Shown here: positions 4,705-19,712 of the stretch, piece after piece | Layout: every line of letters starts with the position of its first letter | Numbering within the stretch: position 1 is the stretch's first letter | From: Stigmatella aurantiaca | GTDB lineage: Bacteria > Myxococcota > Myxococcia > Myxococcales > Myxococcaceae | Assembly: GCF_900109545.1 (NCBI RefSeq) | Contig: NZ_FOAP01000022.1 | Span: forward strand, 62,001 to 126,000 | Direction of reading: 5' to 3' | Length of the DNA: 64,000 bases | Notes under the pieces: generated by a model | The model's database searches: none | Seen by the model: only the letters and a program-made list of their open reading frames with translations | What the model was told of the DNA's origin: nothing | Made by a program: the position numbers and the translations under genes

Positions 4705-5529
4705 ATGGCTCCCTGGCTCCTTCCATACCGCCTCCCCTTGGCACTCCCAGGCTGTGTCCTGATGATGGCATGTGCTGGAAGCCCAGGCCCCAACCGTCCA
4801 GGCCGTTATGCCTTGGACAACTCCGCATCGGCGGCTTGCCGGAACAGCCCTGTCCACTGTGCTTCCTTGGGAGAGCGAGTCCCGCTGAAAGGGCCAGGAC
4901 AGGCCGTGGCAACCGCCAGCATGACGGCCCAACGGACGCTCCGCGTTCTCGATGAGGCCACTCAGGCTGCCATCGAAGAGGAATTGGTCCGGTGTGCGGA
5001 TGAAGCCCGCTCCACGGTGCTCCTGAAGCACCGGGCTTCCTTCAAGGCACAGGCTCCATCAGAAGCAGAGTGCAAGCAGTGGGTGAAGGACGCCACGGGA
5101 CGGCGGGTGACCCAGGCCATGTTGCTTGGAACGGAGATGCATCATGCCGCGCGGCGATGCATTGACGAGAAACTGCAGAAGCTACGGCCAGGAGGATTCA
5201 GCCTGGAGCCTCGGTATGCCTATACCCTGGATACGGGTACAAAGCGGTGGATTAGCCCCAAAGAGGAGCAGGCCTTGGAGCATTCGGGGAATGGTGGCGA
5301 GCTGTCAGGGACCCTCAAACCGGATGTCGTGCTCCACTCGGGAAATCCTCTGGAGGTAAAAGCCACTTATGACTTCAAGTTCCCTTGCGTGAACACGGAT
5401 GAGGCTCCGCGATGGAGCCGGTATCCCGATGGCCATCCGTATGAGGATTTCACCCAGGGCCAGATGTATGAAAAGGCACTGGGTGTCAGACCCGCGCGGG
5501 TCGTTCCTCGGCTGGGGATCTTCCGTTGA
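4705..5529 (+). CDS. lipoprotein-type nuclease toxin candidate (SitA-like cassette)
   Basis: 274 residues. The N-terminus is hydrophobic and ends in L-M-M-A-C23 followed by AGSPG, a plausible lipoprotein cleavage site. A helical middle region leads to a C-terminal module with D-V-V-L, then L-E-V-K-A and Y-D-F-K-F, which reads like a PD-(D/E)xK nuclease core, followed by TQGQMYEKALG. It overlaps by 4 bp (TTGA) with a gene of the DUF3396 immunity family. A toxin followed at once by its immunity gene, with a lipoprotein leader, is the known layout of SitA toxins that myxobacteria pass by outer-membrane exchange; assignment to that class is inference. GC looks lower than in the flanking genes, suggesting transfer. 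Confidence 0.6.
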   Translation: MAPWLLPYRLPLALPGCVLMMACAGSPGPNRPGRYALDNSASAACRNSPVHCASLGERVPLKGPGQAVATASMTAQRTLRVLDEATQAAIEEELVRCADEARSTVLLKHRASFKAQAPSEAECKQWVKDATGRRVTQAMLLGTEMHHAARRCIDEKLQKLRPGGFSLEPRYAYTLDTGTKRWISPKEEQALEHSGNGGELSGTLKPDVVLHSGNPLEVKATYDFKFPCVNTDEAPRWSRYPDGHPYEDFTQGQMYEKALGVRPARVVPRLGIFR

Positions 5530-6437
5530 TCCAGCGCTACCCCAGAATCCGAATCCACTCGGAGGACGGAACGCTTCTCGTCCGTGAGGGGCTGAGCATC
5601 TCCTTCTTCATGCATTACACCCACGCCGAGATCGCCCAGGGAGTGCTCAAAGCGCTGGAGCACTACCGAAGCGCCGTGGGTCCGGAGGGCCTGGGCCTCT
5701 ATGCGGATGATGAGGGAGGATGGTGGACGCTGGATGCAGAAGGATGGGACGCCGTTCGCCACCAACTGCACCATCCGCACCGGGCCAGTGTCCATCTTGT
5801 GGGTACATCCGCCGAGCAGCGCCGTTACCGGTTCGATTACGACGGCAAACGGCTTGGGGCTCCTGCCCTTGCCCGTGAGCCCGGCGCGGTTTCCGCCGTG
5901 GCCTTCTGGCTTCCGACCGAGTACCTGGAGGCCCAGGGTCCTGAACAGGTCCGTGCGCTCGCGATGACCTTGGCAGCCCCGCTCCCGCTCTGTTCCGGTC
6001 ATGCGGGACTCGCTTTCAACGGAGCGCTGGACAGGGCCAGCGTGAAGCAGGAGCTCCACCCGTGGCGTTTCCGTTACCCCGGGCTGGATATTCTCGATCT
6101 GGACAGGCACTCCTGGAACCTTGGCACCCGGGTGCGTACGGTCTCCTGGCTCACGTTCCTGGGCGCCCCCGTTCTGGAGGAGCTGGGAGGGGCGGCGGCC
6201 CTTCGCTCGCTGTTATCGTGGCCTGACACCCAGGTGGAAGCGATGGAGGGAGGACGTGCCGTCGTCACCTTGGGAGCCGCTCCTGAAGCGGGCGACACGG
6301 AAGCAGGTGAGCTTCTTCCAGGCTATCGGGAACTGGCGCACGTCTTGGAGCCTTGGCTTTATCAAGAGCCCTTTCAGCCAGGATCGGGCTTCACCGAAGA
6401 CGAGCTGCGCCGCTGGGAGCGCCGGTTTCTCGACTGA
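5526..6437 (+). CDS. DUF3396 / type VI immunity family protein
   Basis: The 303-residue protein starts at a TTG whose bases overlap the TGA of the preceding gene, so translation is probably coupled. It has no signal peptide. Features of the DUF3396 family are visible: the early strand SISFFMHY, the motif LGLYADDEGGWWTLDAEGW around residues 54-72, and the aromatic-rich half with FRYPGLDILDL and VRTVSWLTFLG. Such proteins neutralise a cognate toxin encoded next door, here most likely the nuclease-like lipoprotein at 4705-5529. Cytoplasmic location suits protection against an imported nuclease. The next gene follows after 48 bp and looks unrelated. Confidence 0.75.
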   Translation: MIQRYPRIRIHSEDGTLLVREGLSISFFMHYTHAEIAQGVLKALEHYRSAVGPEGLGLYADDEGGWWTLDAEGWDAVRHQLHHPHRASVHLVGTSAEQRRYRFDYDGKRLGAPALAREPGAVSAVAFWLPTEYLEAQGPEQVRALAMTLAAPLPLCSGHAGLAFNGALDRASVKQELHPWRFRYPGLDILDLDRHSWNLGTRVRTVSWLTFLGAPVLEELGGAAALRSLLSWPDTQVEAMEGGRAVVTLGAAPEAGDTEAGELLPGYRELAHVLEPWLYQEPFQPGSGFTEDELRRWERRFLD

Positions 6438-6485: not shown

Positions 6486-6827
6486 ATGCATCACCTGGCC
6501 CTCGTGGCGTTCGATGTCCCCAGCATGGAGCGGTTCTACCGGGAGTACTTCGGCTTCCGGCCGGGACATGGCCCGGGCTTCTTGTTGGATGAGCGCGGCT
6601 TCCTCCTGTCGGTCGAGCCCGCCCCCGCGCCCCCCGAGATTCCCTCGTGGTTGCACCATGGCTTCCACCTCGCCTCGCGTGACGCGCTCGTGGCGCTTCA
6701 CGAGCGCATGCGGGCCCAGGGGGTGCCCATCGTCGATCCGCCCAAGGACCAGGGGCGGACCTCGGTGTTCTTCTGCCGCGACCCGGGCGGCTACCTCGTC
6801 GAGGTCCGGGCGCCCCTCGCGCCTTAA
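6486..6827 (+). CDS. VOC family (glyoxalase/bleomycin-resistance fold) protein
   Basis: A single-domain protein of 113 residues. The N-terminal H-H-L-A-L-V-A-F-D-V strand with MERFYREYFGF and the C-terminal RDPGGYLVEV are the usual landmarks of one VOC module. The early His and the late Glu of LVEV are the common metal ligands. Members include glyoxalase I, dioxygenases and antibiotic-binding proteins; no substrate can be inferred. It ends just before a strong hairpin shared with the convergent GH92 gene. Confidence 0.8.
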   Translation: MHHLALVAFDVPSMERFYREYFGFRPGHGPGFLLDERGFLLSVEPAPAPPEIPSWLHHGFHLASRDALVALHERMRAQGVPIVDPPKDQGRTSVFFCRDPGGYLVEVRAPLAP

Positions 6828-6833
6828 GCGGAA

Positions 6834-6881
6834 GCCCCGCCCTCCCCCTCCTGGACGTGCAGAAGGGGGAGTCGCGGGGGG
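6834..6881. terminator. bidirectional terminator-like hairpin
   Basis: Two nested stems separate the convergent VOC and GH92 genes: an outer GCCCCGC / GCGGGG pair and an inner CTCCCCCT (6842-6849) / AGGGGGAG (6864-6871) pair around a 14-base loop. There is no long T-run on either side, so termination strength is uncertain. Confidence 0.5.
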
Positions 6882-6891
6882 CCTGCGCCCA

Positions 6892-9800
6892 CTACGGCTT
6901 GGTGAGGAGTTCGACCTCGGCGAGCGTGACGCCCGCCGGGCCCGTCAGCTCAAGGCGGTAATGGGTGTAGATACCCGGCGTGGAGACCCGGAAGGGGCGC
7001 GTCTGCGAGCGCCAACGGAAGGTCTGGTCGCTGCGCTTGTCGAGGAGCGTGTAGATCACCCCGTCGTTCGAGCCGCTCAGGGTCCAGCCCGTGGGGTCCG
7101 TTCCCGTGGTGCCCGACGTCAGCGTGTAGAAGGTGACCTTCTGCCCTCCCGAGGCGAACAGGTGCTGCACCACGGGGTTCGCCGCGGTGAAGCTCACGCT
7201 CGTCGCCGAGGTGTTGTCGAAGAGCGCGGCCACGTTCGTGCCATCGCTCGACGTGGCCTGGGTGCCCACCGCGATGTCCCGCAGCGGACTCGGGATGTTG
7301 TCATCGGTGGTGAGCGACGGCGGCGCGTTCTCGGCCCCTGCGCCCCAGGAGGAGGGCGAAGGGCCCATGTCGAAGACGAGGGTGGCGCCCTCGGCCAGCA
7401 GCGCATGGGGCACGTAGGTCTTCGCGTACGGCTGCCCGTTGATCGTCAGCCCTCGCACGTAGATATTCTTCGGGCTGTTGTTGGGCGCGTCGATCTGGAT
7501 TCTCTTGCCGTTCTCCAGGTGGATGACCGCATGCTTGAAGAGCGGTGAGCCGATGACGTACTCCGCGCTGCCCACTTGGAGCGGGAAGAGGCCGAGCGCG
7601 CTGAAGAGCTGCCACGCCGACGTCGCCCCGTTGTCCTCGTCACCGACGTAGCCCTGGCCGATGTTGCTGCCCACCCAGAGCCGCGCGAGCGCATCGCGGA
7701 CCTTCTCCTGCGTCTTCCACGGCTGTCCGGCGTGGAGGTACATGTACGGGATGTGGAACGAGGGCTGATTGCTCAGGCCGAGCTGGCCCATGCGCACATC
7801 CCGTGCCTCGCGCATCTCGTGGATGATGCCGCCGTAGCCGCCCGGGAAGCCCGCCGTCTCCGGCGTGGCGAAGAACTGGTCCAGCTTCGCGGCGAGGTTC
7901 ACCCGGCCCCCGTACAGGTTGGCGAGCCCCAGGCCGTCGTACGGCGCGTCGAAGGCCATGTTCCAGCCGTTGGTCTCGGTGTAGTCGCCTCCCCAGCGCC
8001 GCGGATCATACTGGTGCGGCGGCGTGACGAACGCCCCCTCCGCCGTCTTGCCCTGGAAGAACTGGATCGACGGATCAAAGAGGTTCACGTAGTGCTGCGA
8101 GCGCTCGCGGAAGTACTCCGCGCTCTCGGCGAACTCCTGGTGGCGCGGGTGGCTCACGTCCTCCGCGAGGACGCTGGCCATGTTCGCGATGCCGAAGTCA
8201 TTCAGGTAGCCGGCCATCGCCCACGACAGGCCCGCGCCCGTCGAGACCGGGGTGTAGCCGAGGAAGATGGACGCATCGAGCCCCTTGCGCCCGACGCCGT
8301 TGCTCGTGGGCCGCACCGTCGCGTTCCGCAGGGCCGCGTCGAAGGCCGCCTCCGCGTCGAAGTTCCGGACGCCCTTCACGTAGACGTCGGCGAAGGAGAC
8401 ATCCGAGCTCGTGCCCGTCATGAGGTCCGCGTAGCCCGGCGAGGACCAGCGGGCGATCCAGCCGCCTTCCTTGTACTGCTGCACGAAGCCGTCGGCCAGC
8501 TCGCCCGCCTTCGCCGGCGAGAACAGCGCGTAGGCCGGCCAGGTCACCCGGTAGGTGTCCCAGAAGCCGTTGTTCACGTAGATCTTCCCGCTGACGATCT
8601 TCGCGCCCGTCTGGGTGGGCGTGCTCGCGCCCACCGCGGGGGCCACGGGGCTCGCGTGCGCGTAGACGGGCTCGGCCTCCGTGCCGGTGTTCTCGAAGCC
8701 GGAGTTCGGATACAGGAACAGCCGGTACAGGTTGGAGTAGAGCGTGACGAGCGCGTCCTCGCTGGCGCCCTGCACCTCGATGATGCCGAGCTTCTGGTCC
8801 CAGAGCGCCTGCGCGCGCTCCTTCACGCGGGTGAAGGTGTCGCCGTCCGGGAGCTCCATCGCGAGGTTCTTCTTGGCCTGCTCGAGGCTGATGAGCGAGG
8901 TGGCGATCCGCATGGTCACGGTGCGGTCGCTCGAAGGCACGGTGAAGCGAAGGTAGCCGGTCACGTTCGGGCCGCCACCGCCCGTGAGCATGCCGCTGGC
9001 GGACACCGGCCGGTCGAACGTGGCATAGATGAAGAGCCGCGAGGCGCCCGTCGACAGCCCGCTGCCCACGTCGGAGTAGCCCGACAGGCTGCGCGCGGAG
9101 GCGTCGAGGGTGAGCCCCCCGTTGTTGTTCACGTTGTCGAAGATGAGGCTGGCGTCATCGCCGGGGAACGTGAAGCGGAACATCGCCGCGTGGTCCGTGG
9201 GTGCGAGCTCGGCCCGGATGCCATTGTTGAACTTCACCCCGTAGTAGTAGGGCCGGGCGGTCTCGTTCGCGTGCCGGAAGGGCAGCGCGCGCGCATCCCG
9301 GCCTGCGGCCGGCGTGCCCTCCGCCGCCGAAGGCATGACGTGGAAGGTCTGCCGGTCTCCCATCCAGGGGCTCGGCTGGTGGCTCAGGGCCAAGGCCTGG
9401 AGCCGCGGGTGGTTGTTCGCGTCATTGCGGCGGTGGTACTCGTACAGCCAGCTCGTCGTGCCCGCGTTCGTCGCCGGGGTCCAGAAGTTGAACCCGTGTG
9501 GCACGGCCGTCGCGGGGAAGTTGTTGCCCCGCGAGAAGGTGCCGCTCGAGTACGTGCCGCGCAGGGTCGTCACATAGTCCGACAGGTGCGTGGGCCTCGG
9601 GTTGTCGTGCACTTCCTCGATGCGCACATCGTCGATCCATCCCCCGAAGGCCGTCACCGGCCCGTGCGGATTGTCGTAGCCCACCAGGATGCGCTTGATG
9701 CGCTTGCCCGCGGCCACCTCGCCGATGCGGGAGACCTTGTAGTTCCAGTCGTTGGAGTAGAGCGTGCGCGAGGCGCCCTGGCCCGCCGGGCTCAGGATCG

Positions 9801-11013
9801 CATGGTGCTGATCGACGGCGTTCAGCTCGCTCAGATAGGTGCCGTCATCGAAGGCGAGATCCACCGCCGCGTAGGTGCCCGGGTAGCTGAGGTCGTTCGT
9901 CGCCTCGTCCACGAAGATCAGATACGACAGCTCCGTCACGGGCGTGACCCGGACGTCCACGTCGAAGATCTTGTTGTAGGAATAGCCCCGGCCGTTGCCC
10001 GGCACCGAGCCCGCGAAGCGAAACGCGCGCTTGCCCGTGAAGCCCGCGCCGAGCTTGGCGTTCCACGAGGCCCCCGGGCCGTTGCCGGGGAAGCTCTTCA
10101 TGTCCGTCAGGGGACGCGGCGTGTTGTCGCCATTGGAGAGCTGGAGCTCGGCGATCTGCAGGATGTTGCCGCTTTGGTTGGCGGTGACGTTGAGCCGGTA
10201 ATAGGCGTAGGCGGTGGTGTTGGTGAACTCGTAGGTGTGGGTCTCGAAGCGCGAGGCGAACGACACGCCGCTGCGGGTGTCGACCACAGTCCAGCTCGTC
10301 CCGTCCTGAGAGCCCTCCAGGGTCCAGGCGGAGGGGTCGCGCTCGGGCGCGTCATTGGCCGAGGAGACGGCATAGCGCCTCACGGCGATGGGCTCCTCGA
10401 GCTTGACCCGCACCCAGCCCGTCGCCGTGAACGTCAGCCACTTGGAGGTCAGCTCCCCGTCGGCGATGCGGACCGCCGTCTCGTCGGGGGGATTCTCGCC
10501 GTTGGCCGTCACCTCGGTCACCTGATCCATGATGTTGCCGAGGATCCGCGTGTCCGTCTCTCCGGAGACGCCCGAGGACTTCTTCTGCCCATTCGCATCG
10601 GTTTCGACCGTGGAAATCCAGTCAGGCTGCGGATCCTCCTCTTCGAACGACGAGTAGAAGTCCGTGGGTGGCGTGGGGGAGCCACCGTCATCCGGCCCCG
10701 CGTCCGTCCCGGTCCCTCCGTCCGTCCCGGTCCCTCCATCGGTATCCGGCCCCGCGTCCGTCCCGGTCCCTCCGTCCGTCCCGGTCCCTCCATCGGTATC
10801 CGGCCCCGCGTCCGTCCCGGTTCCTCCATCGGTATCCGGCCCCGCGTCCGTCCCAGTTCCTCCGTCAGGATTCGGCCCCCCGTCGTTGACGGTGCCCGAG
10901 TCGGGCTCTCCGCCCGGGCCGGGCTCGGGATCGGACGAGGAACCACAACCGATGGCCATCACGGCCACTGCGATGGCGAGCAAACGATGAACGCCTTGTG
11001 TGCGATTGAGCAT
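6892..11013 (-). CDS. secreted GH92 alpha-mannosidase with F5/8C (discoidin) domains
   Basis: I start at ATG 11013 (AAGGG upstream), giving 1373 residues, because the signal peptide then begins at residue 1 and ends in a lipobox M-A-I-G-C23. A linker of Asp/Gly/Thr repeats follows to about residue 115. Next is an F5/8-type C domain (about 150-300, with TSKWLTF and WTLEGSQDG) and a jelly-roll-like region. The GH92 module carries GFWDTYRVTWPAYALF, WSSPGYADLMTGTSSD and, near residue 1130, GDEDNGATSAW with the acidic catalytic residues. A second F5/8C domain fills the last 140 residues. GH92 enzymes are calcium-dependent exo-alpha-mannosidases on glycans. The F5/8C domains probably bind the substrate, suggesting a predatory or degradative role at the cell surface. 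Confidence 0.88.
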   Translation of the reverse strand: MLNRTQGVHRLLAIAVAVMAIGCGSSSDPEPGPGGEPDSGTVNDGGPNPDGGTGTDAGPDTDGGTGTDAGPDTDGGTGTDGGTGTDAGPDTDGGTGTDGGTGTDAGPDDGGSPTPPTDFYSSFEEEDPQPDWISTVETDANGQKKSSGVSGETDTRILGNIMDQVTEVTANGENPPDETAVRIADGELTSKWLTFTATGWVRVKLEEPIAVRRYAVSSANDAPERDPSAWTLEGSQDGTSWTVVDTRSGVSFASRFETHTYEFTNTTAYAYYRLNVTANQSGNILQIAELQLSNGDNTPRPLTDMKSFPGNGPGASWNAKLGAGFTGKRAFRFAGSVPGNGRGYSYNKIFDVDVRVTPVTELSYLIFVDEATNDLSYPGTYAAVDLAFDDGTYLSELNAVDQHHAILSPAGQGASRTLYSNDWNYKVSRIGEVAAGKRIKRILVGYDNPHGPVTAFGGWIDDVRIEEVHDNPRPTHLSDYVTTLRGTYSSGTFSRGNNFPATAVPHGFNFWTPATNAGTTSWLYEYHRRNDANNHPRLQALALSHQPSPWMGDRQTFHVMPSAAEGTPAAGRDARALPFRHANETARPYYYGVKFNNGIRAELAPTDHAAMFRFTFPGDDASLIFDNVNNNGGLTLDASARSLSGYSDVGSGLSTGASRLFIYATFDRPVSASGMLTGGGGPNVTGYLRFTVPSSDRTVTMRIATSLISLEQAKKNLAMELPDGDTFTRVKERAQALWDQKLGIIEVQGASEDALVTLYSNLYRLFLYPNSGFENTGTEAEPVYAHASPVAPAVGASTPTQTGAKIVSGKIYVNNGFWDTYRVTWPAYALFSPAKAGELADGFVQQYKEGGWIARWSSPGYADLMTGTSSDVSFADVYVKGVRNFDAEAAFDAALRNATVRPTSNGVGRKGLDASIFLGYTPVSTGAGLSWAMAGYLNDFGIANMASVLAEDVSHPRHQEFAESAEYFRERSQHYVNLFDPSIQFFQGKTAEGAFVTPPHQYDPRRWGGDYTETNGWNMAFDAPYDGLGLANLYGGRVNLAAKLDQFFATPETAGFPGGYGGIIHEMREARDVRMGQLGLSNQPSFHIPYMYLHAGQPWKTQEKVRDALARLWVGSNIGQGYVGDEDNGATSAWQLFSALGLFPLQVGSAEYVIGSPLFKHAVIHLENGKRIQIDAPNNSPKNIYVRGLTINGQPYAKTYVPHALLAEGATLVFDMGPSPSSWGAGAENAPPSLTTDDNIPSPLRDIAVGTQATSSDGTNVAALFDNTSATSVSFTAANPVVQHLFASGGQKVTFYTLTSGTTGTDPTGWTLSGSNDGVIYTLLDKRSDQTFRWRSQTRPFRVSTPGIYTHYRLELTGPAGVTLAEVELLTKP
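10691..10870. repeat. in-frame tandem repeats coding the GH92 linker
   Basis: Two perfect 54-bp units start at 10691 and 10745, then two shortened 36-bp versions start at 10799 and 10835. All begin TCCGGCCCCGCGTCCGT on the plus strand. They code the Asp/Gly/Thr linker on the minus strand (GTDAGPDTDGG pattern) and could vary in number by slippage without breaking the frame. Confidence 0.85.
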
Positions 11014-11152
11014 GCATGAACCCTTACGGGAATGTGGCCGTGATGCGCAGCCAATAAGCGGCGCCCATCCTGCCCCACCTGCCCTTCCGGCATCGCCCCT
11101 ATTTGGTGCATCCCTGCTCCCACCCGGTAGGCTCGGGAGAAAAGGAGCCTCC

Positions 11153-11668
11153 ATGTCCAGAAAGCCTCCGTTGAACCCTGGCGCGCTGCCTCCGGGAACC
11201 TTCGTGGGCCCCTGGCAGGTGGCGCGCTGGCACGCACGAGGCGGCAACGGCACCGTGTACCAGGCATGGAAGACGGGTCCTGAAGGCACAGGGCCCGTGG
11301 CCCTCAAGCTGGCCCTCTATCCCGAGGACAGGCGATTCAGCAGGGAAGCCGGACTCCTCTCGCGCCTCCAGCATCCACACGTGCCACGGCTGCTGGAGTC
11401 CGGACAGTGGCGGCACCCTTCCGGTGTCTCATACCCCTACCTGGCGATGGAGTGGGTGGAGGGCGAGCCCCTGTACGCATGGGGCCAGGGGTCCTCGCCG
11501 TCTTCCCGTCAGGTCATGCGGGTGCTGGCACACCTGGCACGCGCACTGGAGGCCACGCATGCGGCCGACGGGGTCCACCGCGACGTCAAAGGGAGATACA
11601 GTGCTTTCTGTACCTCCGGACGTCGATGCGAAGGTGCAGTCCAGAGGGGAAGTAGCAGCGCCGGGTAG
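11153..11668 (+). pseudogene. Ser/Thr protein kinase, N-terminal half, broken after HRDVKG
   Basis: ATG at 11153 follows a strong AAAGGAG site. The protein shows kinase subdomains I-VIb in order: glycine loop ARGGNGTVYQA (28-38), V-A-L-K52, the hinge AMEWVEGEPL, and the catalytic loop H142-R-D-V-K-G147. Similarity stops at base 11593: where D-N-V-L-V would be expected, the frame reads RYSAFC and ends at 11668. The DFG motif, activation loop and C-lobe are missing, so it cannot be an active kinase. A fragment resembling the C-terminus of the same kinase type occurs at about 19440-19712, suggesting that the intervening island was inserted here. The stop-proximal 75 bases are island DNA. Confidence 0.85.
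11588..11612 (+). promoter_or_regulatory. Shine-Dalgarno supplied by kinase codons, plus dyad over GTG
   Basis: AAAGGGAG (11588-11595) consists largely of the kinase codons for K146-G147 and sits 5 bases before the GTG at 11601. TACAG (11597-11601) and CTGTA (11608-11612) form a small dyad across that start. The site decides the start of the next gene. Confidence 0.5.
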
Positions 11669-12707
11669 TCCGGAGGAGAGGCAGAACTCCAGTCCGGCTG
11701 ACGTCTCGCCGGGTAGCGTGCCGGTCGTCCCCGAGCGGAGCCCCCGGAGCGCAGCGGAGGGGGCGCAGCGAGGCCCTACAGAGCTGCATGGGATGGGGCT
11801 CCTCGTCTACGAGGTGCTCGCCTGCTTCGTTGTCGTCGTGCTCGGGTGGCTGTTCTGGGGCTGGATGGGCGGCGGGTGGCGGGCCGCCGTGTTCGCTGCG
11901 GTCTGCGGGGGGCTCCCGCTTGCGGTGTCACTGCGTGGTGAACTGCGCGGGCGTGTGGTGGCGTGGTGGGCGCGCGTGCGGCTGGCGTGGTGGGCCCGGC
12001 GCTGGCCGCGCCTCCCCCAGCGAGAACCCCTCACGCCGTGTCGGGAGTGCGGCAAGGTGCTGCCGTACCCGTGCGCCACGCCGCTGTGCGACGGCTGCTT
12101 GAGCGAGCCGACGCGCGAGGAGCTTCAGCAGCAAGCGGACGCCATGGCGGCGCGCTGGCGTCAGGCGAGCGCGGACGCGGATGAACTCCGGGCAGTCCTG
12201 CTGGTGGAGCGCAGTGAGTTGCGGCTCGCGGAACATGCTGCCGAGGCGTACAGAGCACAGGCAGACCGTGTAACGCGCGATGCCCAGGCGCAGCACAACC
12301 GGCACTTCCGCGCCGTGCTGGAGCTGCGGCGCCGCCGGAAACTGCACACCGAGCTAATGGGCTACGTCGGCCTGCTCAAACAGGCGCTGCGCAAGGCCCA
12401 GCGGAACCTCTCTGCGGCGGACGCGGCGGTCCTTCGGCGCTTCGACGAAGCACGCGCCTACTGCCGGGAGCTGGAGCACGAGCGCCGCGAGCGCACGCGC
12501 CAACAGGAGCGCGCGGACGAGCTGCACCGCAGGCTGGAGACGGCCGAGCGGGACCACGAAGCGACGGCGGAGGCGCTGCACATAGCGCTGCGCGAGCGTG
12601 ACGCGCTGGACAAGGAACGCACGCGCCTGGCCGTGGAGCTGGAGGTGCTGGGCGAACACCTGGAACGCGCCCAGGAGAGCGCACGGCACCCGGAGGACAC
12701 CAAGTGA
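11601..12707 (+). CDS. membrane-anchored zinc-motif coiled-coil protein (island gene 1)
   Basis: GTG at 11601 is chosen for the perfect ribosome site just upstream; the longer open frame before it runs through the kinase in the wrong phase. The 368-residue protein has a Ser/Pro-rich N-terminus, two hydrophobic segments (around VYEVLACFVVVVLGWLFWGW and AAVFAAVCGGLPLAV), a basic stretch, a four-cysteine motif C-x2-C-x8-C-x4-C-x2-C-like (CRECGKVLPYPC, LCDGC), and then about 230 residues of Arg/Glu/Ala-rich coiled coil. I do not recognise the family. It overlaps the next gene by 4 bp (GTGA) and opens a series of tightly coupled phage-like genes. Confidence 0.7.
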   Translation: MLSVPPDVDAKVQSRGEVAAPGSPEERQNSSPADVSPGSVPVVPERSPRSAAEGAQRGPTELHGMGLLVYEVLACFVVVVLGWLFWGWMGGGWRAAVFAAVCGGLPLAVSLRGELRGRVVAWWARVRLAWWARRWPRLPQREPLTPCRECGKVLPYPCATPLCDGCLSEPTREELQQQADAMAARWRQASADADELRAVLLVERSELRLAEHAAEAYRAQADRVTRDAQAQHNRHFRAVLELRRRRKLHTELMGYVGLLKQALRKAQRNLSAADAAVLRRFDEARAYCRELEHERRERTRQQERADELHRRLETAERDHEATAEALHIALRERDALDKERTRLAVELEVLGEHLERAQESARHPEDTK

Positions 12708-13471
12708 TCGCCTCCGTGGCTGCTCTCCTGGAGCACGCCACGGACCTCCAAGCCTTGACCCTCTGGCAACCCTGGGCGTGGGCAGTCGCCACGCCCGAGG
12801 TGGGCAAGGACGTGGAGAACCGTGGCTGGGAACCTCCGCCCTCGGCGCTCGGCAGGCCGTTGGCGATTCATGCGGGCCTCACCTACGACGCGGACAGCGC
12901 GGCGAGCATTGCCGAGGAGCTGGGCGTACGCGTGCCGGGCAAGGCCCAGTGCGTGCGCGGCGCCGTGGTGGCCGTGGCGGTGCTGGCGCGCGCAGAAGCC
13001 CAGAGCCGCTCCCGCTGGTGGGTGCCGGGCAACGTGGCGTGGTGCCTCGCAGGCACCGTGACACTCCCCCGGCCGGTGCCGTGCAAAGGCGCACAGGGCC
13101 TCTGGCGCCTGCCGCCGGAAGTGCTGGCCCAGGTCCGCACCCAGGTGCTTGAGGCGCTGGCGCCTGTGGCACCCACGCGCGTGAGCGGGCGCGTACATGG
13201 CGGCAGCTCGCGCGGCGGCCCGGCCGTCGTCACTGGCGCGGTGACGATTCGTGGTGGCCAGGTGGTGCCGTGCGAGGACTGCCGCCGGCCGATTCTCGGC
13301 TACGGGCCCGGCCCCCACCGCCATGGCGGCTACCTGCTGGCGCGCGGCATGGGCGCGCCAGGTGGCGGCCCCTGGCCCACCTGCGGCCACGGCGAGTGCT
13401 ACCGGATGAGCTGCCTGGGCAAGCCCGAGGCGCCGCCCTGCTGTGCCAGCGCGGAAGGGAGCGCCGCGTGA
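12704..13471 (+). CDS. ASCH domain protein with C-terminal cysteine motifs
   Basis: GTG at 12704 overlaps the previous stop. Residues 17-155 look like an ASCH domain: LTLWQPWAWAV, then KDVENRGW, and LAIHAG. ASCH domains are related to the PUA fold and bind or act on RNA or modified nucleosides; many are encoded by phages. The C-terminal part has CEDC, CGHGEC and CC motifs that may bind zinc and is not standard for the family. The order ASCH, HTH, methylase, nuclease is typical of phage early or accessory gene blocks. Confidence 0.7.
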   Translation: MIASVAALLEHATDLQALTLWQPWAWAVATPEVGKDVENRGWEPPPSALGRPLAIHAGLTYDADSAASIAEELGVRVPGKAQCVRGAVVAVAVLARAEAQSRSRWWVPGNVAWCLAGTVTLPRPVPCKGAQGLWRLPPEVLAQVRTQVLEALAPVAPTRVSGRVHGGSSRGGPAVVTGAVTIRGGQVVPCEDCRRPILGYGPGPHRHGGYLLARGMGAPGGGPWPTCGHGECYRMSCLGKPEAPPCCASAEGSAA

Positions 13472-13674
13472 GCACCCCCAAAGAGAAGGACCTCGCCGAG
13501 GCCAAGGACCGGCACAGCGCGAAGCAGGAGGAACAGCGCAAGGCCGTGCGCCGCCAGGTGCGCGCGGGGCTCAGCGACGCGGCGATTGCCCGCGTGCTGC
13601 GCATGGGCAAGGCGACGGTGAAGCAGCTCCGCACGGAGCTGGGCCTGCCGAAGAACTCCGGGAGGCGCGAATGA
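13468..13674 (+). CDS. small helix-turn-helix protein
   Basis: A 68-residue protein from GTG 13468, which overlaps the previous stop by 4 bp and has AAGGGAG upstream. The first half is highly charged (KEKDLAEAKDRHSAKQEEQ). The second half carries a helix-turn-helix: LSDAAIARVLRMGKATVKQL. It resembles short phage-borne DNA-binding proteins. Its own stop overlaps the ATG of the methylase gene, so all of these are probably translated from one message. Confidence 0.65.
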   Translation: MSTPKEKDLAEAKDRHSAKQEEQRKAVRRQVRAGLSDAAIARVLRMGKATVKQLRTELGLPKNSGRRE

Positions 13675-14681
13675 GCGGCGAGCCGTTGAAGGCGCCCTTC
13701 CCGTGGTTCGGCGGCAAGAGCCGGGCGGCCTCGCTCATCTGGGAGGGCTTCGGGGACGTGCCCAACTACGTGGAGCCGTTCGCGGGCTCGCTGGCGGTTC
13801 TCCTCGCGCGGCCCACGCCGCCGCGCGTGGAGACGGTGAACGACGTGGACCACTACCTGGCCAACTTCTGGCGGGCCCTCTCCCAGGCGCCCGAGGAGGT
13901 GGCGCGGCACGCGGACAACCCCGTCTCCGAGGTGGACCTGCACGCATGGCACCGCTGGCTGGTGGACAACGCGGAGTTCCGCACGCGGATGGAGAAGGAC
14001 CCTCTCCACTTCGATGCACTCGTGGCCGGGCGGTGGCTGTGGGGCATCTCCCAGTGGATTGGTTCCGGGTGGTGCTCCGCCCCCCAGTGGAAGGGCCGTG
14101 CGCATCCAGGCAACGGCATGCGCGGCATCCACGGACGGCGGGTGCGAGAGGTGGACCCGGAGCCATGGCAGCAAAAGCCCGACCTCGCGGGGAGTCGTGG
14201 CGCGGCTGGACGCGGCGTGCATGCAAGCGGGCGCCGCAACCAAGCGCTGCTGGAGTGGATGGGGCAGCTTGCTGCGCGGCTCCGGTATGTGCGCGTCTGC
14301 TGTGGTGACTGGAAGCGCGTGCTGACACCTGCTGCCACGTCCCAGATAGGCGTGACGGCGGTGCTGCTGGACCCGCCCTATGCCCACGACACAGGGCGGG
14401 ACCCGGCCCTCTACGCCCACGACGCGGCGGATGTGAGCCGGGAGGTGCGCGAGTGGGCCCTGGCCCACGGCGAGGACCCGAAGCTGCGGATAGCCCTGTG
14501 CGGCTACGAGGGCGAGCACGACATGCCGCCCACCTGGCGGTGCGTGGCGTGGAAAGCAGCTGGCGGGTACTCGGCGGCGCGAGGCAAAGGCGCCAACGCC
14601 GAGCGTGAGCGGGTGTGGTTCTCGCCGCACTGCCTCCAGGCCCGCCAGGCGGACCTCTTCGAGCGGAGGGCCACGCCATGA
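13671..14681 (+). CDS. D12-class DNA N6-adenine methyltransferase
   Basis: ATG at 13671 (ATGA overlap) gives 336 residues. The D12-class landmarks are present in order: P-W-F-G-G-K near residue 15 (S-adenosylmethionine side), Y-V-E-P-F-A-G-S-L for the methyl-donor pocket, and the catalytic D234-P-P-Y237. This is the Dam/phage methylase group; it methylates adenine in a short DNA site that cannot be read from sequence. No restriction endonuclease of the usual type lies next to it, so it looks like an orphan phage methylase, comparable in kind to the Mox methylase known from myxophage Mx8. The middle (residues 125-200) is long and Arg/Gly-rich. Confidence 0.85.
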   Translation: MSGEPLKAPFPWFGGKSRAASLIWEGFGDVPNYVEPFAGSLAVLLARPTPPRVETVNDVDHYLANFWRALSQAPEEVARHADNPVSEVDLHAWHRWLVDNAEFRTRMEKDPLHFDALVAGRWLWGISQWIGSGWCSAPQWKGRAHPGNGMRGIHGRRVREVDPEPWQQKPDLAGSRGAAGRGVHASGRRNQALLEWMGQLAARLRYVRVCCGDWKRVLTPAATSQIGVTAVLLDPPYAHDTGRDPALYAHDAADVSREVREWALAHGEDPKLRIALCGYEGEHDMPPTWRCVAWKAAGGYSAARGKGANAERERVWFSPHCLQARQADLFERRATP

Positions 14682-15247
14682 CGGGCGCCGAAGCGGCCGA
14701 GAGGCGCAAGGCGCTGGGCTACACACAGGCGGCTCTGGCCAAGTTGCTGGGCACCTCCTCCCCCACCATGGCGCGGTGGGAGGCGGCCGAGTCCGCGCCC
14801 GAGGCGCTCACCCGGGCCCTGGGGAACCTCGCCCCCTCGACTGGGGGTGGACGGGGGCCGTACCGGCGCGCCGCCGCCGGGATGGCCACGCCCGAGCCCC
14901 CCAGCGCCCCGCCAGCGCGCCAGAGACGGCGGGAGGGCCTGACACCGCCCCCCACCCCGAAGGCGCGCAGGAAGCCCACCCAGGCCCCGCCGCCCCTGCC
15001 TGCCCGGAAGCCCATCACCCCCGAGGTGCAGGAGGCGGCAGCTGTGGGCGCGGTGCTGCTCGAGGACATGAGCGCGGTGGCCGAGCGCGTGGCGGAACTG
15101 CTGGGCCTTGAGGACGCCACGCGCCACGCCCGGCGCGTGCTGCCTCCGCCGCGCTACCCGGTGGCGGCCTGCCAGCGCTGCCCGTGGAAGCGCTGCCCCG
15201 TGCCGCTCGTGGCGGCCCCGGCCGAGGGGTGCTGCCTATGGCGCTGA
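14678..15247 (+). CDS. XRE-type DNA-binding protein with proline-rich linker
   Basis: ATG at 14678 overlaps the methylase stop (ATGA) and gives 189 residues. Residues 1-50 form a helix-turn-helix of the Cro/XRE kind (RRKALGYTQAALAKLLGTSS, then PTMARWE). A Pro/Arg-rich linker leads to a short helical region (EVQEAAAVGAVLLEDMSAVAERVAELLGLE). The protein ends in a cysteine cluster (CQRCPWKRC, then CC) that may bind metal. It could be the repressor of the element or a methylase-linked controller protein; nothing decides between these. Confidence 0.7.
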   Translation: MTGAEAAERRKALGYTQAALAKLLGTSSPTMARWEAAESAPEALTRALGNLAPSTGGGRGPYRRAAAGMATPEPPSAPPARQRRREGLTPPPTPKARRKPTQAPPPLPARKPITPEVQEAAAVGAVLLEDMSAVAERVAELLGLEDATRHARRVLPPPRYPVAACQRCPWKRCPVPLVAAPAEGCCLWR

Positions 15248-15659
15248 TGCTGGCCGAGAACCCCCGCTTCGCCGTGCTGCGCGCACTGGAGCGGGCCCGG
15301 GAGCGCATTGCCCGCGGGCACCCCTCGATTGCCTGTGCGCTCAAGCCGGAACGGCTCACAGAGCGGGCCTGGGTGGATCTGGACCGGACGGTGGATGACG
15401 TGCGCTTTGAGCCGGCCCCGCGCCCTTCCTCCAGGTGCCGCCCTACCGCCGGGGCGAGAGCTTCCACCTCACCGAGTTGCGCGAGCTGCTGCAGGCCGCC
15501 CGCCGCAACGCCTTCCTTGCCTGGGAAGACCCGGGCGGCCTCACCCGCGCCCAGGCCGTGGCGGTGCTCGCGTGCGCCCTGGAGCGCCTGCGCGCGGCGC
15601 CCGCCAAGAGCCCCGGGCCGTTGTTCGACATCCCTAACCCCAACAGGAGAAACCCATGA
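15238..15659 (+). CDS. island gene of unknown function with apparent -1 frameshift
   Basis: ATG at 15238 overlaps the previous gene by 10 bp. One frame reads MALMLAENPRFAVLRALERA through DVRFEPAPRP and then turns into low-quality Ser/Cys sequence. The next frame continues smoothly as FLQVPPYRRGESFHL and on to a stop at 15659 that overlaps the nuclease start by ATGA. Reading one C twice at about 15423 (CGC CCT to CGC CCC TTC) joins the halves into about 140 residues. This could be a one-base deletion, a sequencing error, or a programmed shift. A GTG at 15435 could also start the second half alone. The family is not recognised. Confidence 0.5.
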
Positions 15660-15982
15660 GTCGTGTGACCAAAGGAAAGACGTTCGAGAGAAGAGTGGCC
15701 AAGGCGCTTCGGTGCCTGGATCCGAAGGCGAAGAGGTGCCTCCAGTTCCAGAAGGAGCACGGCGCACCGGACGTGAAGGCTGGACCTCTGTGGGTGGAGT
15801 GCAAGGCGCGGCGCGTGCCGGTGGCCACCGTGTACGAAGAGACGGCCAAGGCCGCCAAAGCGCGTCGGGGCACCATTCCCGTGGTGGTGAGCAAGACGAC
15901 GGCGAAGGGGGCAGTGCTGCTCACTATGAGCCTGCGCGACTTCCTCAAACTCGCACCACGCCTGCCGACGGTGAGTCGATGA
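15656..15982 (+). CDS. PD-(D/E)xK nuclease, Hjc/VRR-NUC-like
   Basis: 108 residues, ATG overlapping the previous stop by 4 bp. The opening GKTFERRVAKAL resembles the first helix of archaeal Hjc-type Holliday-junction resolvases and VRR-NUC nucleases. The active-site string is A-P-D-V, then W-V-E-C-K-A-R (residues about 43-55), i.e. PD-x-ExK. Later AKAARRG-like and IPVVVSKT strands complete the core. Small stand-alone nucleases of this kind are common in phages, where they resolve recombination or replication intermediates. Endpoint and substrate are inference. Confidence 0.7.
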   Translation: MSRVTKGKTFERRVAKALRCLDPKAKRCLQFQKEHGAPDVKAGPLWVECKARRVPVATVYEETAKAAKARRGTIPVVVSKTTAKGAVLLTMSLRDFLKLAPRLPTVSR

Positions 15983-16048
15983 GCGGCTGTGGTCCTGAAC
16001 TTCGAGTAGTGCCCGTGACGCTCAGTCTAGACTCGGCAAGGAGGGGGC

Positions 16049-16309
16049 ATGACGGCGCGCAGACGAGCACTGCCCAAGGACCCGCGCGAATTGGGCTCAG
16101 CCGAGCCTCAGCACGGGATGAGCGAGAGACAGGTCCGGAAGCGCAAGGAGCGCGTGGCGTTTCAGATGGTCCTAGAGGAGTACCCGGCGGTAGCTATTGA
16201 GGAGCGCTTCAGCCGTGGCGATCTGAACCTGACGCGGTTGGCGAGAAAGCACGGGATTGACCTGCGCGCTCGGGTCCATGGATTCCCGGGAGGGCTACCG
16301 GCCCAGTGA
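16049..16309 (+). CDS. small basic island protein of unknown function
   Basis: ATG at 16049 follows a very strong AAGGAGGGGG site. The 86-residue product is basic, with MSERQVRKRKERVAFQMVLE and a putative HTH-like stretch ERFSRGDLNLTRLARKHGIDL. I do not recognise the family. It is the last gene of the phage-like block; the bases after its stop contain an 80-bp palindromic element. The final residues (VHGFPGGLPAQ) may be altered by whatever rearrangement put that element there. Confidence 0.5.
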   Translation: MTARRRALPKDPRELGSAEPQHGMSERQVRKRKERVAFQMVLEEYPAVAIEERFSRGDLNLTRLARKHGIDLRARVHGFPGGLPAQ

Positions 16310-16385
16310 TGACTCACATTTCTGACGCTGGGTCGATGGTCTTGTCTTGAAGAAGGAGTAGCCGCTTGTAGCGCGTCAGGACTAG

Positions 16386-16465
16386 AAGCCTGTCTCGGTA
16401 GGGTCCATTTCTGGCAGCTCATTCCTCGGTCGATGAGGTGCCAGAGCGCCCTGCCGGAACAGGCT
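16386..16465. mobile_element. 80-bp MITE-like palindromic element flanked by CTAG
   Basis: The ends AGCCTGTCTCGGTAGGG (16387-16403) and, as reverse complement, AGCCTGTTCCGGCAGGG (16449-16465) match at 14 of 17 positions. The match continues inward through TCTGGCA (16410-16416 and 16439-16445) and CTCAT, so almost the whole element folds into one hairpin. CTAG lies on both sides (16382-16385 and 16466-16469), as a target duplication of an IS5-like element would. A plain long terminator hairpin is the main alternative. Confidence 0.55.
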
Positions 16466-16478
16466 CTAGGGGGTTCGA

Positions 16479-18719
16479 ATGCAGAGCAGTTATGGATGGC
16501 TGAAGATACTGAAATTATGGCTCGGGCTTTGGCTGGCAGTTGGTTGTGGGAAGGCCACCGTGGAAACGGAAGAGCAGGCATCGCATCATTCGCATCTCTG
16601 GCGCTCCCAGTCGAGATCCCGTGTCGCCGCAGGGGGGCGACATACCTTAGCGGTACGTCCAGACGGCACGGTGTGGGCTGCGGGGTACAACGGAAACGGC
16701 CAGTTAGGGGATGGCACCACGAGTGATCGCAAGGTGGTGCCCGTGGCGGTGCAAGGCCTGAGCGGGGTGGTGGCCGTGGCGGCGGGCTTCTCCCACTCGC
16801 TAGCGGTGCGCTCGGACGGCACCGTGTGGGCTTGGGGGGACAACTACTACGGCCAGGTGGGGGATGGCACTATGAGTACCCGCAGGGTGCCCGTGGCGGT
16901 GCAAGGCCTGAGCGGGGTGGTAGCCGTGGCAGCGGGCTACGACCACTCGCTGGCGGTACGCTCGGATGGCACCGTGTGGGCCTGGGGGCATAACGGAAAC
17001 GGCCAGTTAGGGGATGGCACCACGAGTGCCCGCCCGGTGCCAGTGGTGGTGCAAGGCCTGAGCGGGGTGGCGTCCGTGGCGGCGGGCAACTCCCACTCGC
17101 TGGCAGTGCGCTCGGACGGCACCGTGTGGGCCTGGGGGAGCAACGGAAACAGCCAGTTGGGAGATGGCACCACGAGTGACCGCCCGGTGCCAGTGGCGGT
17201 GCAAGGCCTGAGCGGGGTGGTGGCCGTGACGGCGGGCATCTTCCACTCGCTGGCGGTACGCTCGGACGGCACCATGTGGGCCTGGGGGAGCAACTCCTAT
17301 GGCCAGTTAGGGGATGGCACCACGAGTACCCGCAGGGTGCCCGTGGCGGTGCCAGGCCTGAGCGGAGTGGTGGCCGTGGCGGCGAGTTCCCACCATTCGC
17401 TGGCGGTGCGCTCGGACGGAACCATGTGGGCCTGGGGGAGCAACGGAAACGGCCAACTGGGAGACAGCACCACGAGTGATCGCAAGGTGCCAGTGGCGGT
17501 GCAAGGCCTGAGCGGGGTGGTGGCTGTGGTGGCGGGCCACTCCTACTCGCTGGCGGTGCGCTCGGATGGCACGGTGTGGGCCTGGGGGTACAACGGAAAC
17601 GGCCAGTTAGGGAGTGGCACCACGAGTGCCCGCCCGGTGCCAGTGGCGGTGCAAGGCCTGAGCGAGGTGGTAGCCGTGGCGGCGGGCGGCAACCACTCCG
17701 TGGCAGTGCGCTCGGACGGCACCGTGTGGGCGTGGGGGAACAACTACTACGGCCAGTTAGGGGATGGCACCACGAGTGCCCGCCCGGTGCCAGTGGCGGT
17801 GCAAGGCCTGAGCGGAGTGGTGGCCGTGGCGGCGGGCTGGTCCCACTCGCTGGCGGTGCGCTCGGACGGCACCGTGTGGGCTTGGGGGGACAACTACTAC
17901 GGCCAGGTGGGGGATGGCACCACGAATATCCGTAGGGTGCCAGTGGCGGTGCAAGGCCTGAGCGGGGTGGTGGCCGTGGCGGCGGGCAACTCCCACTCGC
18001 TGGCGATACGCTCGGACGGCACCATGTGGGCCTGGGGGAGCAACTCCTACGGCCAGTTAGGGGATGGCACCACGAGTGATCGCAAGGTGGTGCCCGTGGC
18101 GGTGCCAGGCCTGAGCGGGGTGGTGGCCGTAACAGCGGGCGGCAACCACTCGCTGGCGGTGCACTCGAACGGCACTGCGTGGGCCTGGGGGCATAACGGA
18201 AACGGCCAGTTAGGGGATGGCACCACGAGTGCCCGCCCGGCGCCAGTGGTGGTGCAAGGCCTGAGTGGGGTGGTGGCCGTGGCAGCGGGCTACGACCACT
18301 CGCTGGCGGCGCGCTCGGACGGCACCGTGTGGGCCTGGGGGAGCAACGGAAGCGGCCAGGTGGGGGATGGCACCACGAATACCCGCAGGGTGCCCGTGGC
18401 GGTGCAAGGCCTGAGCGGGGTGGTGGCCGTGGCGGCGAGGTTCTACCACTCGCTGGCGGTACGCTCGGACGGAACCATGTGGGCCTGGGGGAGCAACGGA
18501 AACAGCCAGTTGGGAGATGGCACCACGAGTGACCGCCCGGTGCCAGTGGCGGTGCAAGGCCTGAGCGGGGTGGTGGCCGTGGCGGCGGGCGGCATCCACT
18601 CGCTGGCGGTGCGCTCGGACGGCACCGTGTGGGGCTCGGGTTCCAATGCGAGCGGCCAGATCGGCGACGGTGGACCTACTGACTCCGTAACTACTCCTGC
18701 TCTCTCATTGCTGTACTGA
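16479..18719 (+). CDS. RCC1-repeat (beta-propeller) lipoprotein
   Basis: ATG at 16479 with AGGGGG upstream gives 746 residues. The signal peptide ends in the lipobox L-A-V-G-C23. From about residue 50 the protein consists of 14 repeats of about 50 residues with the pattern SHSLAVRSDGTVWAWG, then N-x-x-GQLGDGTT, then PVAVQGLSGVVAV; the last is incomplete and changes to GSGSNASGQIGDGG. These are RCC1/regulator-of-chromosome-condensation repeats, which in bacteria occur in secreted proteins that bind partners on a propeller face. Seven repeats usually make one propeller, so two propellers in tandem are likely. It sits downstream of the MITE-like element as apparent cargo; the ligand is unknown. 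Confidence 0.85.
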   Translation: MQSSYGWLKILKLWLGLWLAVGCGKATVETEEQASHHSHLWRSQSRSRVAAGGRHTLAVRPDGTVWAAGYNGNGQLGDGTTSDRKVVPVAVQGLSGVVAVAAGFSHSLAVRSDGTVWAWGDNYYGQVGDGTMSTRRVPVAVQGLSGVVAVAAGYDHSLAVRSDGTVWAWGHNGNGQLGDGTTSARPVPVVVQGLSGVASVAAGNSHSLAVRSDGTVWAWGSNGNSQLGDGTTSDRPVPVAVQGLSGVVAVTAGIFHSLAVRSDGTMWAWGSNSYGQLGDGTTSTRRVPVAVPGLSGVVAVAASSHHSLAVRSDGTMWAWGSNGNGQLGDSTTSDRKVPVAVQGLSGVVAVVAGHSYSLAVRSDGTVWAWGYNGNGQLGSGTTSARPVPVAVQGLSEVVAVAAGGNHSVAVRSDGTVWAWGNNYYGQLGDGTTSARPVPVAVQGLSGVVAVAAGWSHSLAVRSDGTVWAWGDNYYGQVGDGTTNIRRVPVAVQGLSGVVAVAAGNSHSLAIRSDGTMWAWGSNSYGQLGDGTTSDRKVVPVAVPGLSGVVAVTAGGNHSLAVHSNGTAWAWGHNGNGQLGDGTTSARPAPVVVQGLSGVVAVAAGYDHSLAARSDGTVWAWGSNGSGQVGDGTTNTRRVPVAVQGLSGVVAVAARFYHSLAVRSDGTMWAWGSNGNSQLGDGTTSDRPVPVAVQGLSGVVAVAAGGIHSLAVRSDGTVWGSGSNASGQIGDGGPTDSVTTPALSLLY
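16626..18716 (+). repeat. 14 tandem ~150-bp repeats within the RCC1 gene
   Basis: Each unit is about 150 bp and contains strings such as GGTGCAAGGCCTGAGCGG and GCTCGGACGGCACC that recur almost unchanged. Variation concentrates in a short window coding the loop before QLGDGTT (YNGNG, DNYYG, HNGNG, SNSYG). Near-identity at synonymous positions points to recent amplification or ongoing gene conversion. Confidence 0.9.
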
Positions 18720-18920
18720 AGCTCTTGTGAATGTCGCGGATGCGGTCATGCTGGCTCTAGACGAAGGGGGATACCCCCACGGCCCTCTGTTGAACCAAGT
18801 AACTCATGTTCAAACATTGCGCCGAAACCGACCGGTAGCGGCGCAGTCTGGGAGGCCGAGCTACCCCCCTGAAACCTATTGGGAGCTGTCAGGGGCTCAA
18901 AGGAAGGGGTTTTGGCGCAG
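18720..18920. other. non-coding stretch between RCC1 gene and recombinase remnant
   Basis: No convincing coding sequence. A GGGGGATACCCCC hairpin near 18765-18777 lies about 45 bp after the RCC1 stop and may help end that transcript. Base composition is lower in GC than the surrounding chromosome. Confidence 0.4.
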
Positions 18921-19400
18921 TTAGGGGGCGGAGGCGGCCAAGAGGTGCGTCCCGCCCCCTTCGACGCCCTGAGAGGCAGTGAGCGCTGCCACATGGCGCT
19001 GTAGTGCCTCTTCTCCCACCCGTGCCTTGGCGGCAGTTGCTGAGACGGCAAGGCTCCGTCCCACATGCTGTGCGCCCAGGCTCAAGAGGCGGAGGAGGAG
19101 GACGAATTCTGCGATGCCAACCTCACGGGCCGCCGTGCGAATCGACTTCTCTTTCATGACTGCTCGCTCACCTATGCCCAGATTGAGAAGGTCTGCTGGG
19201 GATCGTCCGATGGGCTTGCCGCTCTTGGTGCCCATGCAGCAGGCGAGGGTCAACCCCGCGTTGGTGCGTTCAATCAGAAGGCGCCACTCCTCTTGGGCCA
19301 TCCAGCCCGCCAGGGCCGTCAGAATCTCGCCCATGGTGCCTCCCGTATCGACCCACGGCTCACGAATGCTGACGACAACAACGCCAGCGCGGGCGACGGG
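18921..19400 (-). pseudogene. serine recombinase (resolvase) remnant
   Basis: Reading from about 19395 downwards, the frame gives VVSIREPWVDTGG, then EILTALAGWMAQEE, RLLIERTNAGL, GTKSGKPIGR and SIRTAAREVG. This is the end of the catalytic domain, the long helix and the start of the C-terminal helix-turn-helix of a small resolvase/invertase. The N-terminal part with the catalytic serine (normally YxRVSxxxQ) is missing, and after base 19113 the sequence no longer matches. Several conserved positions are changed (EEW for EER, ACCMG for ARARG). It is a decayed recombinase, plausibly from the element that carried this island. Confidence 0.7.
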
Positions 19401-19439
19401 TAGGACTCGCCACTGCGGCCAGTATGGAACCGGTGGGCG

Positions 19440-19712
19440 CCCAAGATGTTCCTTCAGGCTGGGAGGCGATTACCCCTCGACATGCCCCAGCAGCCCCTTC
19501 CAGGCCAGCTCAGGCTCAATGCCTCGGGAAAATGCCCCGGCAGAAACCACACACCCCTCCGTGGAGGATGCTGGCGGGCATTCGAAGGTGGCGCGGAGAA
19601 CTGCGGCGAGGACGAGTATGTCCATGCAGGAAAGTGCTACGCGCCCGTCTTCTCACGGGCACGGCCGTCCACCTCGGAAAGCCCGCAGGATGCAGGTGCA
19701 GGCCCTCATTGA
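19440..19712 (+). pseudogene. C-terminal fragment of a myxobacterial Ser/Thr kinase
   Basis: From an ATG at 19446 the frame reads FLQAGRRLPLDMPQQPLPGQ, then NASGKCPGRN, GGCWRAFEG, NCGEDEYVHAGKCYAPV and PSTSESPQD, ending at 19710-19712. Membrane-anchored myxobacterial kinases of the type broken at 11593 characteristically end with such a cysteine-rich tail (C-P..., GGCW, E-Y, CYxPV). The fragment lies on the same strand as the kinase N-terminal half. The connecting parts (activation loop, C-lobe, membrane helix) are absent. The left limit is uncertain because the recombinase remnant abuts it. Recognition is from memory of the family. Confidence 0.6.

Follow-up and report, generated by a model that had tools for sequence, protein, structure and literature searches.

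A probable remnant of a tailless-type prophage at the catalytic-loop codons of a Ser/Thr kinase gene in Stigmatella aurantiaca

Within a 64-kb stretch of the Stigmatella aurantiaca genome (G000:C22:62001-126000 of a 9.4-Mb assembly in 61 contigs; hereinafter the window, with G000 denoting its own genome), a Ser/Thr kinase gene that we term KinA reads normally up to the HRDVKG motif of its catalytic loop and then gives way to foreign, phage-like DNA. We consider it likely that this DNA is a decayed member of a lineage of tailless prophages with a double-jelly-roll capsid, which enters kinase genes at the catalytic loop by its own tyrosine integrase, and that one deletion subsequently reduced it to its present form. 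Since another kinase, KinB, has a complete relative of the element at the very same codon in a sister species of the same genus (G001), the virus seems to use the DNA of the kinase active site as its landing site.

KinA is cut precisely at its catalytic loop

KinA (11153..11593, plus strand) codes for residues 1-147 of a Ser/Thr kinase and is cut after HRDVKG. The Pkinase domain (PF00069) scored for 11153-11665 in Pfam with 5.7e-9, and similarity to kinases stops at HRDVKG, residue 147. The corresponding G001 locus (L041) aligns with window positions 6684-11592 at 90.7% identity and the match breaks at 11592, 3′ of which KinA turns into foreign DNA; a later piece of the same locus resumes at 19392-19696 (91.8% identity). 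The G001 orthologue is an uninterrupted kinase of 442 aa, and uninterrupted counterparts of KinA are also present in G005 and G004. These alignments with intact orthologues, a check proposed in an earlier note on this DNA, bear out its claim that the kinase is normal up to HRDVKG and lost thereafter. The parts kept in the window are residues 1-147 and a tail resembling residues 337-441, with residues 148-336 missing; a search of the rest of G000 for this middle, also suggested by the note, returned only paralogue-level matches and no copy at orthologue identity.

At the left junction (attL, the left attachment site; 11583..11602, plus strand), as located by alignment with the attL of G001 KinB and with uninterrupted sites, the kinase codons GACGTCAAAGG pass into the element DNA AGATACAGT. 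The latter 9-mer has a single occurrence in the window, at 11594, right at the junction. The junction is real and precise: because it recurs in another kinase in two genomes, it is neither a product of chance nor a fault of a single assembly. Since no tRNA gene was found in the window, a tRNA integration site is not in play here.

A second kinase is struck at the same codon

When window positions 11000-12000 were searched against 30 genomes, the window's own included, matches crossing the junction emerged at two further places, G001:C23 and G000:C4. Both lie in KinB, at the same codon as in KinA, and the remaining kinase matches listed stop at or before query base 607, i.e., at most about 15 bases beyond the junction. 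The same junction beside similar genes, which the earlier note had recommended looking for, is thus at hand in both genomes. Short frames are seen in two of the 30 closest kinase paralogues of G000, namely KinA and KinB. A survey of the kinase site in six other genomes of the genus matched 269 places; of the matches listed, the one in G001:C23 shows a cut at the site. Three short kinase frames (G003:C301, G003:C371 and G002:C6) were considered as further insertions and rejected, as their frames continue past the site. In G005 and G004, the genes nearest to KinB (72% over the C-terminal part) show no interruption. Judging from these alignments, at least two different kinase genes have been struck at the same codon by an integrating element, and at least two insertion events are needed, one for KinA and one for KinB. 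Between G000 and G001 the KinB copies match at 95.0% in the element, 95.5% in the neighbouring gene and 384/425 in the kinase N-terminal part, values by which one and two events in KinB are not separable. The dN/dS ratios of the kinase N-terminal parts (0.17 for KinA and 0.18 for KinB) are likewise uninformative, being dominated by divergence that predates insertion.

The target itself stands out among the kinase genes. In a scan of 397 sequence windows across 18 of the 28 uninterrupted close paralogues in G000, namely those that fell within the 20 best matches, the stretch of 21 bp for HRDVKGD ranked first in conservation (mean 0.89 vs 0.68). This gives a firm footing to the earlier proposal that the conserved HRDVKGDN DNA would be an attractive recurring target, as does the finding of two kinase genes hit at the same codon. 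A C precedes the AA of the site in KinA and in G001 KinB; among the 18 paralogues, GTC is seen in 4 and GTG in 13.

The att sites of the G001 KinB copy are consistent with site-specific recombination. AAGGGAGA is common to both of its junctions, while AGATACAGT occurs in 38 kb of G001 once at the left junction, twice near the right junction and nowhere else, a placement such as would be expected of integrase binding sites. Precise excision restores the kinase frame in silico for this copy only: its joined flanks yield an open kinase frame of 483 aa. These features bear on the alternative that chance or homology-driven rearrangement, rather than site-specific integration, joined phage-like DNA to a kinase, which we regard as very improbable. 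Homology for such an exchange is available, given the many kinase paralogues (30 close ones) and a phage gene related to the kinase tail; however, two paralogues carry the same end of the element at one and the same codon, an integrase gene closes the complete copy, whose joined flanks give the open frame, and the shared phage gene matches the kinase tail and not the catalytic loop.

The complete relative is a prophage of probable tailless type

The complete prophage in G001:C23 spans 24.6 kb, from 1211 to about 25860. Its right end bears a gene for a tyrosine integrase of 380 aa (PF00589, 2e-6); about 40 bp after the end of this gene the kinase frame continues with KGDN. It also codes, on the minus strand and between its left module and the C-terminal half of the kinase, for a serine recombinase. 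We set the serine recombinase, and with it the recombinase remnant of the window, aside as the likely integrating enzyme, as the complete prophage ends with the tyrosine integrase, which would be the enzyme that performs the reaction.

Inside the prophage, a packaging ATPase gene (phrog_2666, 2.5e-9; L042 11671-12453) adjoins a gene at L042 12731, whose 485-aa product has no Pfam or PHROG match. An AlphaFold model of this product, built from an alignment of ten relatives (mean pLDDT 82.9), superimposes on the P3 protein of PRD1 with a Z-score of 16.2 (rmsd 4.2 over 279 aligned residues; G001 copy only) and on P2 of PM2 with a Z-score of 14.7; the PRD1, PM2 and STIV coat proteins are fitted at similar Z, with no sequence match. 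Foldseek comparisons of the model to PRD1-type coats gave E-values down to 1.9e-10. From this predicted fold we take the protein for a double-jelly-roll capsid protein. Because no capsid or integrase match is found in G000, the assignment of the phage type rests on the G001 copy. The DNA of the element and its capsid protein, ATPase and integrase found no match in 50,697 phage records.

Another gene of the G001 prophage (L047:2483-3295) codes for a 270-aa protein whose end resembles a kinase tail (30% over 105 aa, 1e-10) and whose start, in our reading, looks like a remnant kinase N-lobe. An iterated search recovered relatives of this kinase-tail protein in G061, G086, G002, G083, G085 and G013, not all of which necessarily lie within a prophage.

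The window keeps the left module of the prophage

The window retains only the left 4.4 kb of the prophage, at 91–93% identity to the complete G001 copy, with all genes on the plus strand. The first (11601..12707), for which we read a GTG start, is an open frame with a counterpart in the G001 prophage and no Pfam match. It is followed by a gene of phrog_3193 type (12704..13471), as recognized through its G001 counterpart (8.2e-31), the window copy being without a Pfam match, and by a small gene (13471..13674) that might code for a helix-turn-helix (HTH) protein, with weak Pfam matches only, all below the cut-off. Then come a D12-class adenine methylase gene (13671..14681; PF02086, 7.4e-11), an HTH regulator gene (14678..15247; PF01381, HTH_3, 7.2e-6) and a gene for a RusA-like nuclease (15656..15982; phrog_244 at 1.4e-10 for the G001 counterpart). 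The methylase, regulator and nuclease accord with the phage-like character that the earlier note had ascribed to the genes in this interval. The rusA-like gene is the last shared gene of the module: prophage similarity ends within it at 15971, and the three kinase-site copies diverge behind it. On our reading, the window element would once have carried the same capsid and integrase genes as the G001 prophage.

Alternatively, the window element might derive from a smaller mobile element, i.e., a satellite or a capsid-less island, with the same left module and type of integrase. The differences of the three kinase-site copies behind rusA would fit such an element, as would the lack of a capsid match in G000 and a related element in G005, which matches the first gene and has an integrase of 47% identity, yet shows no match to the capsid. 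Nevertheless, we judge this unlikely, given that the one copy found entire at a kinase site carries the capsid and ATPase genes of a full prophage, and that its left module is the one to which the window is 91–93% identical. The G005 element itself occupies L045:9800-15208, and its 20-kb stretch contains no kinase match.

A probable old neighbourhood behind the prophage piece

The DNA to the right of the left module probably belongs to the host rather than to the prophage. Between the end of the prophage match and the start of the host match lies an interval (15972..16351, no strand) with the presumed deletion joint, and host similarity resumes at 16352 with a 32-bp match and firmly from 16470. 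Next is a gene with RCC1 repeats (16479..18719, plus strand; PF00415 in 13 stretches), which we place outside the prophage and whose G001 counterpart is likewise a neighbour downstream of KinA. This gene codes for about 14 repeats in 746 aa, its G001 counterpart having only a short frame of 90 aa. It is followed by a relic of a serine recombinase (18819..19397, minus strand; tblastn 2.7e-54), the remnant already spotted in the earlier note, which in our reading predates the insertion. Last is a kinase tail (19392..19712, plus strand), most likely of a second kinase, KinA′, as suggested by its neighbours and by diagnostic sites; tblastn (1.3e-41 for 19440-19712) upholds its earlier identification as a kinase C-terminus.

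In G001 the gene order is KinA, a CHAT gene, a gene that we read as discoidin-like, RCC1, the serine-recombinase relic and a relic of KinA′, so that the order behind the prophage piece in the window (RCC1, recombinase relic, tail) is the one that begins some 2 kb after intact KinA there. Apart from the tail and 82 bp on contig C44 that match at 91%, G000 has nothing above paralogue level (no higher than 79% for matches longer than 100 bp) for the G001 segment between the middle of KinA and the DNA upstream of RCC1, a loss that we explain by one deletion. Accordingly, 16479-19712 is probably the old downstream neighbourhood of KinA, brought up by that deletion.

The earlier note had instead drawn a single island inside one kinase, with its right end at 19440 against the tail of the same gene. 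The entry of an element at the HRDVKG codons stands, and this right end is probably wrong. A version of the idea, in which one island runs from 11593 to about 19390 with RCC1 and the recombinase as cargo, and the tail is that of KinA itself after loss of the right end of the island and residues 148-336, appears improbable to us. It draws on the tail being 91.8–92% identical to that of G001 KinA, like the rest of the gene, and on the complete prophage also having a minus-strand serine recombinase between the left module and the kinase C-terminal half. Against it, G001 has RCC1, the recombinase relic and the kinase relic in this very order without a prophage around them, and the recombinase relic shares 92.9% identity with this non-prophage copy (G001:C21) as compared to 78.3% with the prophage-borne gene of G001. 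Moreover, of the 14 sites that separate KinA from KinA′, the tail agrees with KinA′ at eight, with KinA at five and with neither at one; in the better-aligned stretch four sites speak for KinA′ vs one for KinA. At three of those four, both kinase tails of G005 side with KinA, which indicates that the window and KinA′ share changes.

In G005 a lone kinase tail (L044:2080-2391) lies upstream of intact KinA (4723-6144) and is 91.8% identical to KinA's own tail. Since two tails this similar occur in one genome, near-identical tails at the locus are not odd, and the lone tail hints at repeated copying of the tail at the KinA locus. Furthermore, both in L041:8209-9091 and in window 18819-19712 the serine-recombinase relic directly precedes the second kinase relic, in the orientation that a kinase-inserted prophage would give; the pair may thus have been left by an earlier insertion event in KinA′.

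Relatives and their distribution

Capsid relatives are found in 11 of the 147 genomes of the class, and matches to the left module in 12 of the 147, with strong ones only in G000 and G001. The integrase has matches in 5 of the 96 genomes of the family, G001 included, the relatives being 47, 41, 34 and 33% identical. Scans of genome_contigs and viral_contigs yielded no integrase relatives, and that of viral_contigs no capsid relatives. Next to the integrase of G061, a kinase-tail match was considered as an insertion and rejected, as it belongs to a phage-type kinase-tail gene. Capsid-bearing relatives in G002, G083 and G085 (L065, L067 and L073, respectively), in which our model finds no integrase, lie beside the same neighbouring gene, presumably for an S46-type peptidase. 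Each end of the G085 relative bears a repeat of 12 bp (at 9289 and at 25822 in L073-L074) that might be dif-like.

Proposed course of events

We propose that a temperate, tailless double-jelly-roll phage entered KinA through its own tyrosine integrase. A short core of the phage attachment site (attP), resembling the catalytic-loop codons, would have undergone exchange at the codons for HRDVKGDN, so that the kinase was severed behind residue 147. A single later deletion would then have started right after the prophage rusA and reached as far as RCC1, removing the remainder of the prophage together with the C-terminal half of KinA and two genes downstream. What the window now displays would be the outcome: the N-terminal part of KinA with attL, then 4.4 kb from the left end of the prophage, then the old neighbours including the tail of the second kinase. 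KinA would thereby have lost its kinase function. With the integrase and residues 148-336 gone, the window copy cannot restore its gene; hence, a kinase switch that can be reversed may exist in G001, though not in the window.

Several observations weigh against this course of events. Neither a capsid nor an integrase gene is present in the window, and none was found in G000. The Foldseek TM-scores of the capsid model to PRD1-type coat proteins are low (0.35–0.40 by query length). The attL contains an additional A that a simple exchange within the shared core would not produce, for which reason the exchange may lie at CAA, and the KinB copy of G000 differs over the first 125 bp, with ATG before AAA. 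The tail, at 92% identity over its length and at five of its 14 discriminating sites, sides with G001 KinA, while KinA′ survives in G001 only as pieces. Finally, the integrase relatives (33–47%) are not beside a cut kinase in the stretches examined, and the choice of a kinase site is for this reason known only in a small branch.

A bolder extension, which we offer as an unlikely speculation, is that of a tailless temperate phage lineage specialised on codons of the catalytic loop in a membrane-kinase family that has expanded (G000 has 30 close copies), a repeated target among the largest that its hosts offer. Its attP would mimic these codons and let it lodge in several paralogues, with the intact copies as reversible switches; the kinase-tail protein of the relatives could act as a decoy for the kinase family.

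Active-site codons of a multi-copy kinase family are an unusual target, offering many possible sites, with one kinase silenced per insertion. The development of these bacteria depends on kinases. As the integrase, the two junctions and uninterrupted sites are all available for a complete prophage of tailless type, the integration reaction is directly testable.

Comparison with known systems

Prophages and islands in coding genes are known, as are tailless prophages (passages of PMC9502842 and PMC9966536). Kinase catalytic-loop codons as the site of a tailless-phage tyrosine integrase did not appear in the literature searched: among the papers listed on kinase sites and tailless-phage integration, no title or abstract opening names a prophage in the kinase catalytic loop, which does not show absence from print. 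Among the closest known systems are the tailless double-jelly-roll prophages (Vinavirales; proposed Asemoviridae, phage NO16), which share the packaging ATPase, the prophage state and the capsid fold, as predicted, with the G001 copy. NO16 is thought to use the host XerCD at dif-like sites (PMC9966536), and for most gut Vinavirales prophages the mode of integration is described as unclear (PMC9502842). Unlike these, the G001 element involves a phage tyrosine integrase and a kinase gene, and nothing in the 50,697 phage records matches it in sequence.

Temperate phages of myxobacteria also include the Myxococcus phages Mx8 and Mx9 and prophage Mx alpha (PMC6070905), the particles of the last being tail-less; Mx8 has its attP inside int and codes for an adenine methylase. 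The methylase gene is common to Mx8 and the kinase element, and so is an attachment site at int, the junction of the G001 copy lying about 40 bp behind that gene. The review passages do not name a kinase site for the three, and the phage collection contains no DNA or protein similar to those of the element. The phage-regulatory switch of phiSa3 in hlb (PMC6597384) resembles the G001 copy as a prophage in a gene whose frame excision would restore, by the in silico joined flanks; it differs in that excision from G001 KinB is a prediction and that in the window restoration of the gene has become impossible. The dusA family of integrases, which use one conserved protein-coding gene as their site (PMC4482086), likewise parallels the kinase element in exploiting a conserved gene. 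However, these integrases target a single gene at its 5′ end, whereas the kinase element is found in the middle of several paralogues of one family, at the codons of the active site.

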